From Synechococcus sp. CCY 9618 (GTDB lineage Bacteria; Cyanobacteriota; Cyanobacteriia; PCC-6307; Cyanobiaceae): a DNA stretch of 64,000 nt. The stretch spans positions 1-64,000 of the forward strand of contig NZ_JAFKRG010000034.1 of NCBI RefSeq assembly GCF_019038415.1, read 5' to 3'. The notes under the pieces are model-generated. The model was not told the origin of the DNA. It saw only the letters and a program-made list of their open reading frames with translations, and ran no database searches. Made by a program: the position numbers and the translations under genes. This document shows, one piece after another, positions 13,877 through 24,588 of this stretch; position 1 is the stretch's first letter, and every line of letters starts with the position of its first letter.

Positions 13877-14144
13877 GGTCACGAATGTCTCTGGACATTG
13901 CGTCTGGATGCTTATTGATGATGAAGAGCTAGCGCTTCCCTATTCAGAGTTTCCCTGGTTTAAGGCGGCAACGATTCAGCAGATCCTTAACGTACTGCGT
14001 CCGACCTCGGACCATCTTTATTGGCCTGATCTAGATGTTGACTTGTCTGTCGAGTCGATACGCCACCCGGAAAGGTTCCCGCTGAAGGCCGAGAGTACTT
14101 TCCAACACTGCCATACACCTGACCCGCCTCCTTCAATGTATTGA
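13848..14144 (+). CDS. DUF2442 protein, partner of DUF4160
   Basis: 98 residues. The DUF2442 core is visible in WMLIDDEELALPYSEFPWF and in the segment ending WPDLDVDLSVESIRHPERFP; the last 18 or so residues look like a non-conserved tail. It starts inside the DUF4160 gene (29-bp overlap), so the two are translated as a pair. Base composition is less GC-rich than the surrounding chromosome. Confidence 0.8.
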   Translation: MPGTTTLAAEVTNVSGHCVWMLIDDEELALPYSEFPWFKAATIQQILNVLRPTSDHLYWPDLDVDLSVESIRHPERFPLKAESTFQHCHTPDPPPSMY

Positions 14145-14337
14145 GCCCACGGAGACTCGGAATCCGTACCTCTTTGCGGGCAGGTGATGGCCAGCGTTAT
14201 GCAGCGATAGGCTCGCATCTATCTGTCAGGGCTGCGCATTCGTCTGTCGCTCCACGCCTGATCCGCCATCGATCATTCCGGCGCAGCATCCACCCTGCCC
14301 AGATCATTGCCCTTCACGCCGCCCTTCCGTCTCTCCC

Positions 14338-15345
14338 ATGAAGGCCTTTCTCTGCAGGCGCTACGGCCCTCCCGAAGTTCTCCAGCTGGCCGAGATCCCC
14401 ACACCCACCCCCGCCGCCAACGAGATCCTGATCCGGCTGCGGGCCACCACGGTGAATTCCGGTGATGTGCGGCTGCGGAGCATGGACCTGCCGCCGGGTT
14501 TCGGCCTGCTCGCCCGGCTGATCTTCGGGCTGCGGCGGCCCCGTCAGCCCATCCTGGGCACTGAGCTGGCCGGGGATGTGGTGGCCGCCGGCACGGACGT
14601 ATCCAGCTTCGCCGTGGGGGATCGGGTGTTCGCCTTTCCCGGGGAAGCCATGGGCTGCCACACCGAGTACGTGTGCCTGCCGGCGGATGGGCCTGTGGTG
14701 GCCATGCCGGCGAACCTCTCCTACGAGCAGGCGGCGGCCCTGTCTTTCGGGGGGTCCACTGTGCTCGATTTCTTCCGCCGGGCCCGGCTGGCCCGTGGGG
14801 AGCGGCTGCTGGTGGTCGGTGCCAGCGGGACGGTGGGCACGGCGGCGGTCCAGATCGCCCGGCACCTGGGGGTCCATGTCACCGGCGTCTGCAGCGGCGC
14901 CAACGCCGAGTTGGTGCGCTCGCTGGGTGCCGAGCGCGTGATTGACCACACCCGCGAGGACTTCACCCGCCTGGGCGACTCCTACGACGTGATCCTCGAC
15001 GCCATCGGCACCGCGTCCTTTCCCCGTGCCCGCCCCCTGCTGGCCCCCGGCGGCCGGCTGCTGCTGGTGTTTGCGGGTCTGGGCGGCATGCTGCTGGCGC
15101 CCTGGCATTCCTTCATCAGCGGCCTGGGGGTGGTGGCCGGGCCCGCTGAAGAGCGGATCGCCTATCTCCATGAGCTCGCCGCCCTGGCCGCCGCAGGCAC
15201 CGTTGTGCCGGTGATCGACCGCGCCTGGCCCTTTGCGGAGCTGGTGGCGGCGCACCGCTACGTCGACCTCGGCCACAAGCGGGGCAGTGTGGTGATCCGG
15301 ATGGAAGCCGCCCCGGACCCATCCGCCGTGGACTCTCCCGGGTAA
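14338..15345 (+). CDS. NAD(P)-dependent MDR-family oxidoreductase (quinone reductase-like)
   Basis: 335 residues. The N-terminal GroES-like domain (about 1-120) contains ILGTELAGDVVAAG; the Rossmann domain has VVGASGTVGTAAVQIARHLG at about 160-179. Structural-zinc cysteines are absent, as in quinone oxidoreductase-type members, so it likely reduces quinones or enals with NADPH. Substrate unknown. It lies 35 bp ahead of the flavoprotein fusion gene on the same strand. Confidence 0.85.
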   Translation: MKAFLCRRYGPPEVLQLAEIPTPTPAANEILIRLRATTVNSGDVRLRSMDLPPGFGLLARLIFGLRRPRQPILGTELAGDVVAAGTDVSSFAVGDRVFAFPGEAMGCHTEYVCLPADGPVVAMPANLSYEQAAALSFGGSTVLDFFRRARLARGERLLVVGASGTVGTAAVQIARHLGVHVTGVCSGANAELVRSLGAERVIDHTREDFTRLGDSYDVILDAIGTASFPRARPLLAPGGRLLLVFAGLGGMLLAPWHSFISGLGVVAGPAEERIAYLHELAALAAAGTVVPVIDRAWPFAELVAAHRYVDLGHKRGSVVIRMEAAPDPSAVDSPG

Positions 15346-15380
15346 TTGGTCAGGATGATTCCTGACCGCCTGAGCCCCCC

Positions 15381-17573
15381 ATGACGTCACCCTCCCGCCA
15401 GGCGAGCCAGGGCATCCCCCTCGGCCGGGTCCTCATCGCGGCCCTAGTGGTGGCGGGTGTGGCCCTCATCTACAGCCAGGGCTGGCACCGCCAGCTGGAT
15501 CTCTCCGCCCTGCAGGCCTCCCGGGACCAGCTGCTGGCCTGGCGCCAGGCGTCCCCCCTGGCCACCGGCGCGGCCTTCCTGCTGCTCTACGTGCTGGTGG
15601 CCGGCCTGTCGCTGCCCGGGGCCACCGTGCTCACCCTGGCGGGGGGCGCCGTCTTCGGGCTGCTGTGGGGCACCGTGCTGGTGTCGCTGGGCTCCACCCT
15701 CGGTGCCACGGCGGCCTGCCTGCTGGCCCGCACCCTCTTCCGCGACCTGGTGCGCCGCCGCTTCGGCAGCCGCCTGAAGCCGATTGAGGAGGGCTTCCGG
15801 CGCGACGGCGCCGCCTACCTGCTCAGCCTGCGGCTGGTGCCCGTGTTTCCGTTCTTTGTTGTCAACCTGCTGATGGGGCTCACCCCCATGCCCCTTCTGC
15901 CCTTCGCTCTGGTGTCCCAGCTGGGCATGCTGCCGGCCACCATCGTCTATGTGAATGCCGGCACCCAGCTGGGGCAGCTCACCTCCTTGAAGGGGATCCT
16001 TTCGCCAGCGCTGCTGGCCTCCTTTGCCCTGCTCGGCCTGCTGCCCTGGATCGTGCGGCTGCTGCAGCAGCGCTGGCGGCTCTGGCAGCTCTACCGGCCC
16101 TGGAGCCGGCCCCGCAGCTTCGACCGCAACCTGATCGTCATCGGTGCCGGCGCCGCGGGATTGGTGACGGCCTACATTGCCGCCACCGTGCGGGCCAGGG
16201 TGACCCTGATCGAAGCCCAGCGCATGGGCGGCGACTGCCTCAACACCGGCTGCGTGCCCAGCAAGGCCCTGATCAGCAGCGCCCGCCTCGCCGCCCGCCT
16301 GCGCCGCGCCGACCATTACGGCCTCACCCCCCAGGATCCCCCGGTGGACCTGCGCCGGGTGCTGCGGCGGGTGCGGGCCAAGGTGGCGGCCATCGCCCCC
16401 CACGACAGCGTCGAGCGTTACACCGCCCTGGGGGTGGACGTGCGCCTCGGCCATGCCCGCCTGGTGAGTCCCTGGGCGGTGGCGATCACCTGCGCTGACG
16501 GCAGCGAGCAGGTGCTCACGGGCCGTTCGATTGTGCTGGCCACCGGCGCCGCACCGGTGATTCCGCCGATCCCCGGCATCGACACCGTCCGGGCCCTCAC
16601 CAGCGAGACCCTCTGGGACGCCCTGGCCGACCATCCCCTGCCCCGGCCCTCGCTGGTGGTGCTGGGGGGCGGCCCGATCGGCTGCGAGCTGGCCCAGGCC
16701 CTGGCCCAGCTGGGCCTGCCGGTGACCCTGCTGCAGCGCAACGACCGCCTGCTGCCCCGGGAGGACCCGGAGGTGGGCGCCCTGGTGCAGGCGGTGCTGG
16801 AGCGCGACGGGGTGCAGGTGCACACCGGCTGCCGGGTGGAGCGGCTGGAGCCCGGCGCCGGCGGGGGGGTGCAGGTGCATTTCGATCTCGGTTTCGGCCC
16901 GGCCCGCGTCGAGGCCGACGAGCTGCTCTGCGCCGTGGGCCGCCGGGCCCGGCTGGAGGGCTACGGCCTCGACACCCTGGGCATCCCCAGCGGCCGCACC
17001 ATCGATACCAGCGCCCACCTCCAGACCCTCTACCCCAACATCCTGGCCGCCGGTGACGCCGCTGGCCCCTGGCAGTTCACCCACACCGCCGCCCATCAGG
17101 CCTGGTATGCGGCTGTGAACGGCCTGTTCGATCCGGTCCGCTTTGCCGTGGATGGCCGGGTGATTCCCCGCACCACCTTCACCGATCCGGAGGTGGCCAG
17201 GGTGGGCCTGAGCGAATCCGAGGCCGACGAGCAGGACGTGGCGTACGAGGTGACCCACTTCGATGTGGCCGAGCTGGACCGGGCCATCGTGGAGTCGGCC
17301 GAGACCGGCTTCGTGAAGGTGCTGACCGTGCCCGGCAAGGACACGATCCTGGGGGTGACGATCGTGGCGGAACAGGCCGGCGAGCTGCTGGCCGAATTTG
17401 TGCTGGCGATGAAATGGAAGCTGGGTCTGGGCAAGGTGATGGGCGCCATCCATGCCTACCCAACCCTGGCGGAGGCCAACAAGTACGCCGCCGGCAACTG
17501 GAAGAAGGCCCACGCCCCCCAGCGCACTCTCGCACTGCTGGAACGGTTCCACACCTGGCGGAGGGGAGGATGA
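15381..17573 (+). CDS. TVP38/TMEM64 membrane domain fused to FAD disulfide oxidoreductase
   Basis: 730 residues. The first 230 or so form a DedA/TVP38 membrane domain with several hydrophobic segments and the motif LRLVPVFPFFVVN; a linker leads to a pyridine nucleotide-disulfide oxidoreductase. FAD-binding VIGAGAAGL is at about 253-261, the redox-active pair GDCLNTGCVPSK has Cys286 and Cys291, and a second dinucleotide-binding loop VVLGGGPIGCE follows near 428-438. The C-terminal dimerisation domain has AIHAYPTLAE, where the usual HPT catalytic His position is Tyr693. MerA-type C-terminal vicinal cysteines and a heavy-metal-binding domain are missing, so mercuric reductase is unlikely. It is probably a membrane-tethered reductase of unknown substrate. 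Confidence 0.88.
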   Translation: MTSPSRQASQGIPLGRVLIAALVVAGVALIYSQGWHRQLDLSALQASRDQLLAWRQASPLATGAAFLLLYVLVAGLSLPGATVLTLAGGAVFGLLWGTVLVSLGSTLGATAACLLARTLFRDLVRRRFGSRLKPIEEGFRRDGAAYLLSLRLVPVFPFFVVNLLMGLTPMPLLPFALVSQLGMLPATIVYVNAGTQLGQLTSLKGILSPALLASFALLGLLPWIVRLLQQRWRLWQLYRPWSRPRSFDRNLIVIGAGAAGLVTAYIAATVRARVTLIEAQRMGGDCLNTGCVPSKALISSARLAARLRRADHYGLTPQDPPVDLRRVLRRVRAKVAAIAPHDSVERYTALGVDVRLGHARLVSPWAVAITCADGSEQVLTGRSIVLATGAAPVIPPIPGIDTVRALTSETLWDALADHPLPRPSLVVLGGGPIGCELAQALAQLGLPVTLLQRNDRLLPREDPEVGALVQAVLERDGVQVHTGCRVERLEPGAGGGVQVHFDLGFGPARVEADELLCAVGRRARLEGYGLDTLGIPSGRTIDTSAHLQTLYPNILAAGDAAGPWQFTHTAAHQAWYAAVNGLFDPVRFAVDGRVIPRTTFTDPEVARVGLSESEADEQDVAYEVTHFDVAELDRAIVESAETGFVKVLTVPGKDTILGVTIVAEQAGELLAEFVLAMKWKLGLGKVMGAIHAYPTLAEANKYAAGNWKKAHAPQRTLALLERFHTWRRGG

Positions 17574-17594
17574 GCCCTGTGCAGATGAACGCGC

Positions 17595-18110
17595 TCAGCC
17601 TCCGGAAAGGAACGGATCGACGTTGAGCAGCGCCACGCTCACCGCCACGGCACTGGCCAGCAGCAGCCACAGCAGACGCAGCAGGATCAGACCCGCCGCC
17701 CGCCGGTCCAGCCCCGCCGCCGCCGCCACGCTCACCACCGCCGCCCCAAGCCCCGCCACCGTGTCCACGGCGGCGAGCACCGGGCTGTGCAGCCCGAAGT
17801 AGAGGGTGGTGAAGACGGCGAACAGCAGCCAGCCAATGCCTTCGGACACCAGCACCACCTGCCGCCGCCATCCGTCGACCGCCCCCAGGTTGGCCACCCG
17901 GGCCAGACCCATCAGGGAGGTGACGTTCAGCACCAGCCACATCGGTGCGAACAGCCAGTCGGGAGGGGCGAAGGGAGGCAGTTGGAAGCTGGTGTAGAAG
18001 GCGCCATCGCCCTGCAGGCCCGCCGGCCAGAGGCTGACGACATTGGCGGCCCCGAGGATCGCCGCGCCATGCCACCAGCGGAAGCGCCGGGCGGGGGCGC
18101 CGAGTGTCAT
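17595..18110 (-). CDS. TspO/MBR family membrane protein
   Basis: 171 residues with about five hydrophobic segments. The TspO-type signature LPPFAPPDWLFAPMW is at about 44-58, followed by LN, and the end has RLLWLLLAS...LLN like other members. TspO proteins bind tetrapyrroles and influence pigment responses in bacteria; the ligand here is unknown. The start overlaps the stop of the upstream VOC gene (ATGA), so the pair forms an operon. Confidence 0.75.
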   Translation of the reverse strand: MTLGAPARRFRWWHGAAILGAANVVSLWPAGLQGDGAFYTSFQLPPFAPPDWLFAPMWLVLNVTSLMGLARVANLGAVDGWRRQVVLVSEGIGWLLFAVFTTLYFGLHSPVLAAVDTVAGLGAAVVSVAAAAGLDRRAAGLILLRLLWLLLASAVAVSVALLNVDPFLSGG

Positions 18111-18478
18111 GCCTGGGAATGGAGCCCGATGGTGTTGCCCTCGCTGTCGAGCACCAGGCTCATGAAACCGTAGGCGCCGATGGACATCTTCGGCTTGATC
18201 ACCCGGCCTCCGGCGGCCTCCACCCGGCTTTCCTCCACTCCGCAGTCGGTGCAGGAGAAATAGATCAGGGTGCCGCCGCCCCCCGGTGCCATCCCCTCCA
18301 TCCTGGCCAGGGCGCCACCGGCCCCCACCCGCTCGTTGTCCATCGGAAAGGCCCAGTACTCCATGCCCGCATCCGGCATGTTCTCCAGGCTCAGCTGGAA
18401 CACGCCTTCATAGAAACGCCGGGCCCGCTCCATGTCGTCGACGTAGAGCTCGAACCAGATGACAGGATTAGCGGCCAT
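18107..18478 (-). CDS. VOC-superfamily (glyoxalase/bleomycin-resistance-like) protein
   Basis: 123 residues made of two beta-alpha-beta-beta-beta units. The N-terminus VIWFELYVDDMERARRFYE and the C-terminal LVLDSEGNTIGLHS are typical of the VOC fold; E12 and the late Glu/His could be metal ligands. The middle has LIYFSCTDCG with two Cys. Substrate unknown; related proteins are often annotated glyoxalase without proof. Coupled to the TspO gene downstream. Confidence 0.85.
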   Translation of the reverse strand: MAANPVIWFELYVDDMERARRFYEGVFQLSLENMPDAGMEYWAFPMDNERVGAGGALARMEGMAPGGGGTLIYFSCTDCGVEESRVEAAGGRVIKPKMSIGAYGFMSLVLDSEGNTIGLHSQA

Positions 18479-23112: not shown

Positions 23113-23802
23113 ATGATCGATCTCGCCGTCTGGGATGGCCTGCTGCGGCGCCACGTGGACAGCCGTGGACGGGTGGACTACGCCGCCTGGCAGGGCCAGG
23201 ACGCCAGGGAACTGGACGGCTGGCTGGCGGCCCAGCGCCCTTTCGATCCGGATCCTGGCGACGGGCCCGAGGCGATGGCCTTCTGGATCAACCTCTACAA
23301 CGCCCTGGTGATCCGCCAGGTGCTGGACCGTTTCCCCCTCGCCTCCATCCGCCCCACCTGGGCCGGGATTCCCAACTGGCCGGCCTTCCTGCGCTTCTTC
23401 TCCCGGCCGGCGATCGTGCTGCAGGACCGGCCCCTCAGCCTCGACCGCATCGAACACGGCATCCTGCGGCCCCGCTTCGGTGATCCCCGGATCCATTGCG
23501 CCCTGGTCTGCGCCGCCATCGGCTGCCCCCTGCTGCGGCCGGAGGCCTACCGCCCGCAGCAGCTTGAGATCCAGCTGCAGGAGGACGCAGGTCGCTTCCT
23601 GCGGCATCCGCAGAAGCTGCGATTCGATCCGGCCACCGGACTCCTGCACTGCAGCCGGGTCCTCCAGTGGTACCGCCGCGATGTCCTGGCGGTGGCCCCC
23701 TCGATCGGCGCCTGGGTGAGTCGTTACCGTCCGGATCTGGATCTGCCGCCCCGCCCCCGGATCGTCTGGCTCCCCTACGACTGGGCCCTGAACGGACGCT
23801 GA
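23113..23802 (+). CDS. DUF547 protein
   Basis: 229 residues, no signal peptide. The conserved DUF547 features AFWINLYNALVIRQVL (about 57-72), HCALVCAAIGCPLLRPEAY (about 122-140) and WYRRDVL are present. The Cys/His/Asn pattern resembles thiol-hydrolase-like folds, but no activity is established for the family. The stop is 15 bp from the convergent glycosyltransferase stop. Confidence 0.85.
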   Translation: MIDLAVWDGLLRRHVDSRGRVDYAAWQGQDARELDGWLAAQRPFDPDPGDGPEAMAFWINLYNALVIRQVLDRFPLASIRPTWAGIPNWPAFLRFFSRPAIVLQDRPLSLDRIEHGILRPRFGDPRIHCALVCAAIGCPLLRPEAYRPQQLEIQLQEDAGRFLRHPQKLRFDPATGLLHCSRVLQWYRRDVLAVAPSIGAWVSRYRPDLDLPPRPRIVWLPYDWALNGR

Positions 23803-23817
23803 CGCAGGGTCACCCGC

Positions 23818-24588
23818 TCACTGGCGGGTCTCGCCGTAGAACCGCTTCAGCGTCGCCGCCGGCACACCCAGCCCCCAGAGCAGACCGATCGCCAGGTGGA
23901 TGCCGGTGGCCTTCCAGGCCCCCCAGCGGGCCACCCGGCGGTCGGAGGATTCCACCACCCTGTTCAGCTGGCGGATGCGTCCCAGCCGGCCGAGCCGGCG
24001 GCAGAGATCGGCGTCCTCCATGATCGGCAGGGACGCATCGAAGCCGCCGCAGCGCTGGAAGTCGGCCCGGCGGCAGAACATCACCTGATCGCCGAACAGC
24101 ACGCGGAAGCCGTTCAGCAGGTAGCGATGGGGCCGGAACAGCAGGGCCGCGTAGTGGGTCTTGAGAGCGTTGTGGAGGCTGATGCCCCAGCGGGTGCGGC
24201 GGGGGCCGCCCATCAGGGACAGGAAGCCCCCGCAGCTGATCGCCGGGTCGGCCAGGGTGTCGCAGATCAGCGGCACGAGATCCGGGGGCACCAGGGTGTC
24301 GGCATGCAGGAAACAGAGGATCTGGCCCCGGGCCAGGCCCGCTCCCCGGTTCATCTGCACGGCTCGCCCCGGCCGCTCCACGCGCACCACCCGGCAGCCG
24401 TGCACATCAGCGATAGCCAGGGTGGCGTCCGTGCTGCCCCCATCCACCACGATCACTTCGGCGGCGGCTGGATCCAGGATCTCCACACGGTTGAGGGTGC
24501 ACTCCAGATGAGCGGCTTCGTTGAGGGTGGGGATGATGATTGACACCGTCGGGGTGTTGAGGGGGCGGCTGTTCACCTCACTGTTCAC
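23818..24588 (-). CDS. TIGR04283-type glycosyltransferase (arsenosugar-associated GT2)
   Basis: 256 residues. GT2 fold with VSIIIPTLNEAAHL at about 16-29, VVDGGSTDAT, the metal-binding FLHADT (DxD-like) and MEDADL. The family-specific RWGAWKATG and the C-terminal membrane-like stretch match TIGR04283, which in several bacteria sits in arsenosugar biosynthesis loci. The start is a GTG at 24588, with another GTG at 24576. It is divergent from a methyltransferase gene with only 29 bp between starts. Confidence 0.82.
   Translation of the reverse strand: MNSEVNSRPLNTPTVSIIIPTLNEAAHLECTLNRVEILDPAAAEVIVVDGGSTDATLAIADVHGCRVVRVERPGRAVQMNRGAGLARGQILCFLHADTLVPPDLVPLICDTLADPAISCGGFLSLMGGPRRTRWGISLHNALKTHYAALLFRPHRYLLNGFRVLFGDQVMFCRRADFQRCGGFDASLPIMEDADLCRRLGRLGRIRQLNRVVESSDRRVARWGAWKATGIHLAIGLLWGLGVPAATLKRFYGETRQ

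Follow-up and report, generated by a model that had tools for sequence, protein, structure and literature searches.

A conserved fusion of a TVP38/TMEM64 membrane domain with a MerA-like flavoprotein reductase and its linkage to arsenosugar genes in two phyla

The gene at 15381-17573 of the window (the whole stretch of 64,000 nucleotides analysed here, from Synechococcus sp. CCY 9618) encodes a genuine fusion, in which a DedA-type membrane domain is followed by a conserved flavoprotein reductase resembling MerA. In two phyla, the family to which it belongs shows physical linkage to arsenosugar genes at a frequency far beyond random expectation. We tentatively propose, at somewhat less than even confidence, that the family is an NADPH-dependent, membrane-bound reductase of metalloids or organoarsenicals, and we hold this with less confidence for the window copy. 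The window gene adds a further member to an architecture that is already on record: RefSeq names it ‘bifunctional TVP38/TMEM64 family protein/FAD-dependent oxidoreductase’, the RefSeq fusion of COG0398 with PF07992/PF02852 has the same domain order and length as the window protein with no structural difference, and in the available portions of PMC10127716 it is the commonest COG0398 fusion. Neither those portions of PMC10127716 nor the RefSeq name states a function or an arsenosugar link for it. The functional lead is new within the open literature searched; in the open-access literature covered by our search we found no paper linking TVP38 with arsenosugars, none using the ‘bifunctional tvp38’ name, and no known substrate for the family. 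The fusion is common (74 of the 274 gammaproteobacterial genomes sampled carry it at full length) yet generically named, and the arsenosugar linkage suggests a specific class of compounds to test in a family that has no assigned substrate. The linkage also provides an entry to the role of bacterial TVP38 (COG0398) proteins, which PMC10127716, in the portions available, leaves to further study.

The gene, its domains and its principal residues lie as follows.

15381..17573, + strand: fused TVP38/TMEM64 (VTT, DedA-type) and FAD/NAD(P)H disulfide oxidoreductase, 730 aa, ATG start
15621..15965, + strand: VTT (TVP38/DedA) membrane domain, residues 81-195 (Pfam; helical in the AlphaFold2 model)
16128..17489, + strand: FAD/NAD(P)H reductase and dimerisation domains, residues 250-703 (Pfam; Foldseek matches to Lpd and MerA)
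16236..16253, + strand: redox pair Cys286-x4-Cys291, present in 96/96 fused rows and 31/31 reductase-only rows
16398..16418, + strand: family motif Pro340-His-Asp-Ser-x-x-Arg346 (family rows; alignment)
17457..17459, + strand: Tyr693 (YPT), MerA-like, replacing the catalytic His of Lpd and GR (family rows; alignment)

The frame reads through 730 codons with zero internal stops and places the VTT domain (PF09335; 82.9 bits against a Pfam cut-off of 33.9) N-terminal to Pyr_redox_2 (residues 250-574) and Pyr_redox_dim (residues 595-703), each of which also exceeds its Pfam cut-off. GC content by codon position follows one pattern across the frame, including the junction, with a GC3 of 0.88-0.98 per 100-codon block. 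The same fusion is found in 96 full-length rows (non-identical sequences, with exact duplicates dropped, not one per species), drawn from cyanobacteria, proteobacteria and further groups, so that neither chance, by a wide margin, nor a sequencing error accounts for it. A frameshift or mis-join was rejected on the basis of the single frame, the even GC pattern, the conservation in 96 rows and the existence of separate-gene versions. A sequence-only reading of this stretch had described a membrane domain joined in one frame to a reductase, with an intact redox Cys pair and without MerA-type end cysteines, and had named two separate genes joined by error as what would overturn it; the description agrees with our results on each of these points, and the joining error can be set aside.

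An AlphaFold2 model built from 24 sequences (mean pLDDT 81.5, pTM 0.71) has a helical N-terminal half followed by the reductase half. Its best PDB matches by Foldseek are lipoamide dehydrogenases and mercuric reductases, and the TVP38 half gave zero matches to solved structures. Residues 692-701, the segment that in this fold reaches into the partner subunit, form a low-quality region of the model. A scan of 13900-18300 returned no promoter-like sites (0.3 expected) and three terminator-like sites (1.1 expected), one of them within the fusion gene.

In the reductase half, Cys286, Cys291, Lys295, Tyr693, Pro694, Thr695 and Glu698 are invariant across the 96 fused rows, as are His341, Asp342, Ser343 and Arg346 of the family motif, and Tyr693 is likewise present in all 31 reductase-only relatives. 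The redox pair supplies the only conserved cysteines of the family, and the window protein has no Cys beyond residue 693. In our alignment the Tyr693 column holds His in E. coli Lpd, Gor and RclA, and Tyr in MerA (segment FPYLTMVEG; the MerA sequence was taken from a phage record, and an alignment with 5x1y agrees). The Tyr had earlier been taken as an unusual replacement of the catalytic His; as a unique feature it was rejected, being family-invariant and also found in MerA, and since MerA itself has Tyr at this position the replacement indicates a MerA-like pocket and not a dead enzyme. Ser343, within the invariant His-Asp-Ser, occupies the column of the other Tyr of MerA (AKYEGIL segment), presumably the second Tyr of the pocket. 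Gln452-Arg453, following the second Rossmann strand, resembles the QRSERLL of MerA at a place where Lpd rows are acidic, and suggests NADPH as the probable electron donor. On the membrane side, VTT residues such as Pro79, Gly80, Arg121 and Arg151 are kept across the family; lipid transport by VTT is putative only.

The family occurs in both fused and unfused forms. In a gammaproteobacterial sample of 274 genomes, 102 had a match at E 1e-100 or better, and these divide into 74 with the full-length fusion, 25 with the reductase only and 3 with partial matches. Among the best 5000 plasmid records, 95 match 80% or more of the query at a single site, and the best 15 plasmid records bearing the RefSeq name are 53-61% identical over 93-96% of the query; none of 50 matches in phage records covers 80% of the query, and the five matches listed there correspond to the reductase half only. 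In some gammaproteobacteria the two halves are two adjacent genes. A separate VTT gene was located within 200 nt in 7 of the 20 reductase-only loci fetched and within 4.1 kb in 13, and was not found in 7 of the 20. A quick tree of 98 representatives requires at least 12 switches between the fused and the unfused state; fusion or splitting of the halves has therefore happened many times over, which points to a shared function.

The linkage to arsenosugar genes was determined in picocyanobacteria and in gammaproteobacteria. The picocyanobacterial sample of 150 genomes of the order contains 31 fused copies, 11 of the window type (type A) and 20 of type B. ArsS lies within 6 kb of 15 of the 31 copies, where approximately 0.15 would be expected by random placement; these comprise 15 of the 20 type B copies, seven of them at 9-63 nt, and none of the 11 type A copies. 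By comparison, an Lpd-like paralogue, followed in the 25 sampled genomes that have it together with ArsS on contig C1, was within 6 kb of ArsS in 0 of 25 cases, the nearest being 98 kb away. ArsS scores above cut-off in 149 of the 150 genomes, and since it is nearly universal in this order, mere co-occurrence is uninformative there and was rejected as evidence. In gammaproteobacteria, ArsS lies within 6 kb of 19 of 103 family copies (12 fused, 7 reductase-only; approximately 0.5 expected) and is present in 58 of the 74 full-fusion genomes versus 80 of the 200 remaining genomes (odds ratio 5.4; Fisher p 9e-9 without phylogenetic correction); 16 of the 74 full-fusion genomes, whose completeness is not given, are without ArsS.

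Gene order in both phyla places the fusion among the genes of the ArsS/ArsM arsenosugar pathway in an operon-like arrangement, although it is no assigned enzyme of that pathway. On one plasmid the order is arsS, fusion, DUF547, TIGR04283, TIGR04282, methyltransferase and phosphate transporter, and three genomic loci keep this order as far as the ArsM-like methyltransferase; cyanobacterial type B loci read ArsS - fusion - ArsM-like methyltransferase. In two cyanobacterial genomes only the TVP38 part stands beside ArsS, at the place that the fusion occupies in relatives; it stops at the linker and is followed by no remains of the reductase, which suggests that the TVP38 half has its own task there. 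We also mapped 40 gammaproteobacterial fused loci, chosen by score after the copies known to adjoin ArsS had been set aside (L156 and L164 were retained). Six of these loci have arsenosugar genes, three have DUF547 only, two have a context resembling the E. coli ynj genes, and the remaining 29 have none of these, a few of them with DUF692 or a lone ABC ATPase; the arsenosugar share in this set is biased downward because most ArsS-adjacent copies were left out.

From the gene neighbourhoods of the family, the likeliest substrate would be an arsenic species of the arsenosugar pathway, for example a pentavalent or thiol-bound methylarsenical, which ArsM and ArsS would need in trivalent form. Hydride would pass from NADPH to FAD and on to the Cys286-Cys291 pair, and the dithiol so formed would reduce, or exchange with, a soft thiophilic substrate in a pocket probably lined by the His-Asp-Ser motif and by Tyr693, the latter in place of the acid-base His of Lpd and GR. 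The VTT domain would tether the enzyme to the membrane and may also transport a lipid, or a product linked to one. Keeping arsenic trivalent for ArsM and ArsS is, we infer, a gap that such a reductase could fill. The window copy is a member of a paralogous subgroup that is not part of the ArsS cluster; it may carry out this metalloid reduction or one close to it, with less certainty than holds for the family. A more specific version, in which the flavin half would supply ArsM/ArsS by reducing a methylated or ribosylated arsenical and the TVP38 half would flip a lipid-linked arsenosugar, seems quite doubtful; if true, one protein would couple the redox and membrane steps of arsenosugar-lipid synthesis.

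Points against an arsenic role are the count of 0/11 type A copies near ArsS, the 29 of 40 mapped gammaproteobacterial loci in which such a context was not seen, the 16 of 74 full-fusion genomes without ArsS, the ynj context and the NDH-2-like partner of type A. In the ynj context, seen on five plasmids (L044 and L048 among them) and in two genomic loci, the fusion stands beside an ABC transporter (binding protein, permease and ATPase) and a CDP-alcohol phosphatidyltransferase, which are homologues of E. coli YnjB, YnjC, YnjD and YnjF (best matches 64, 29, 46 and 57%). No arsenic gene was found in these ynj-type fusion clusters. The E. coli K-12 locus ydjXYZ-ynjABCDEF is homologous to the fusion-bearing plasmid clusters; it has separate DedA proteins and the 4Fe-4S protein YdjY, with no fused reductase there. 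The VTT domain of the window protein is 37.5% identical to YdjX over 136 aa and 35% identical to YdjZ. Because the cluster genes are homologous to ynj genes and the VTT half to YdjX and YdjZ, the fusion may replace YdjX/YdjY/YdjZ in ynj-type clusters.

In the case of the window copy itself, the following neighbours bear on its role.

14338..15345, + strand: MDR-superfamily gene (alcohol dehydrogenase / PIG3-like quinone oxidoreductase), 35 nt upstream of the fusion
23113..23802, + strand: DUF547 protein, lying with the next gene approximately 5.5-7 kb downstream of the fusion; in proteobacterial arsenosugar operons a DUF547 gene follows the fusion
23818..24588, - strand: TIGR04283 ‘arsenosugar biosynthesis’ glycosyltransferase (211.4 bits, cut-off 182)

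The copy falls in type A, being 81-86% identical to type A relatives in a clade with a support of 100 on the tree. It is not adjacent to ArsS or ArsM; other genes of arsenosugar clusters lie near it, and the genome, which has this one fusion gene, carries two ArsS-family genes above cut-off elsewhere, one of them beside a DUF547 gene. The downstream placement of DUF547 and TIGR04283 is common to many type A relatives, and because these relatives are close the synteny is weak evidence. In the place directly upstream, the window has the PIG3-like dehydrogenase and type A relatives mostly have an NDH-2-like, TIGR03169-related flavoprotein gene. The latter precedes the fusion in 12 of the 15 other type A loci, in one case (L083:6404-7654) with a GTGA stop/start overlap, and is missing from this place in the window and in three further loci.

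This NDH-2-like neighbour is the best support for a separate electron-transfer role of type A, whereby the fusion and the dehydrogenase would work together in membrane electron transfer involving thiols or quinones, unrelated to arsenic. The PIG3-like quinone oxidoreductase homologue of the window would fit such a role, as would a TIGR03169-like flavoprotein (287 bits against a cut-off of 310) in the ynj-type cluster of L048. We nevertheless regard it as rather unlikely, given that the Cys pair and the MerA-type Tyr point to a thiophilic substrate rather than a quinone, that the NDH-2-like gene was observed directly upstream only in the type A subgroup, and that the best match to it in the window genome is 31% identical and lies on a different contig. 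Electron transfer at the membrane had been the suggestion of the sequence-only reading; it gains from the NDH-2-like neighbour in type A, but the wider neighbourhoods point to arsenosugar chemistry instead.

The likeness to MerA allows for another role, a housekeeping defence against metals or oxidants by a membrane-tethered enzyme of the MerA/RclA kind that would reduce Hg(II), Cu(II) or similar ions; we consider this role unlikely. MerA is the top-scoring model with a named function, and the window protein shares with it the FAD/NAD(P)H fold, the CxxxxC pair, the Tyr of the dimer domain and the QR after the second Rossmann strand. A MerA-like enzyme of Synechocystis reduces Hg(II) and uranyl, according to the available portions of PMC4307280, and a DUF692 gene, mostly with DUF2282 and DoxX, adjoins the fusion in L044, L048, L049 and L156. 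However, the score against the MerA model TIGR02053 (341.3 bits) is below the cut-off of 454.45, the C-terminal vicinal cysteines are absent with only the redox pair conserved, and zero mer genes were found in eight annotated plasmid stretches. The window protein further differs from MerA in having Ser343 for the second Tyr and an N-terminal VTT domain. With Lpd and GR it has in common the fold, the CxxxxC pair and Glu698 after the catalytic position, but it carries Tyr693 where these enzymes have their catalytic His, and it scores below cut-off for both dihydrolipoyl dehydrogenase (TIGR01350; 328.6 against 408.8) and glutathione reductase (NF004776; 219 against 480). Filing it as MerA, Lpd or GR was rejected since it falls below all three cut-offs; the top NCBIfam model, PRK06370.1-3 ‘FAD-containing oxidoreductase’, is also missed (446 against 620).

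That TVP38 is a mere anchor or scramblase and the reductase a low-specificity disulfide reductase, with the arsenic linkage arising from co-transferred stress islands, would accord with the many copies on plasmids, the many without recognisable context and the repeated fusion and fission on the tree, but it appears quite improbable, as two phyla share the operon-like arrangement with ArsS and ArsM-like genes and TVP38 alone persists beside ArsS, which shared transfer does not require.

Some further observations concern the surroundings of the fusion. The 35-nt gap upstream of the window gene contains a perfect 8-bp inverted repeat with a loop of 4 (15348-15367), and among 217 loci its 18-base core was matched only by two copies of this same place, with none outside the window genome. 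In two other loci a radical-SAM-like gene, recognised by eye and with no ArsS marker match, immediately precedes the fusion and is accompanied by an ArsM-like gene. On the downstream side, a TspO/MBR family gene (window 17595-18110) is convergent with the fusion and is found downstream of it in most type A relatives.
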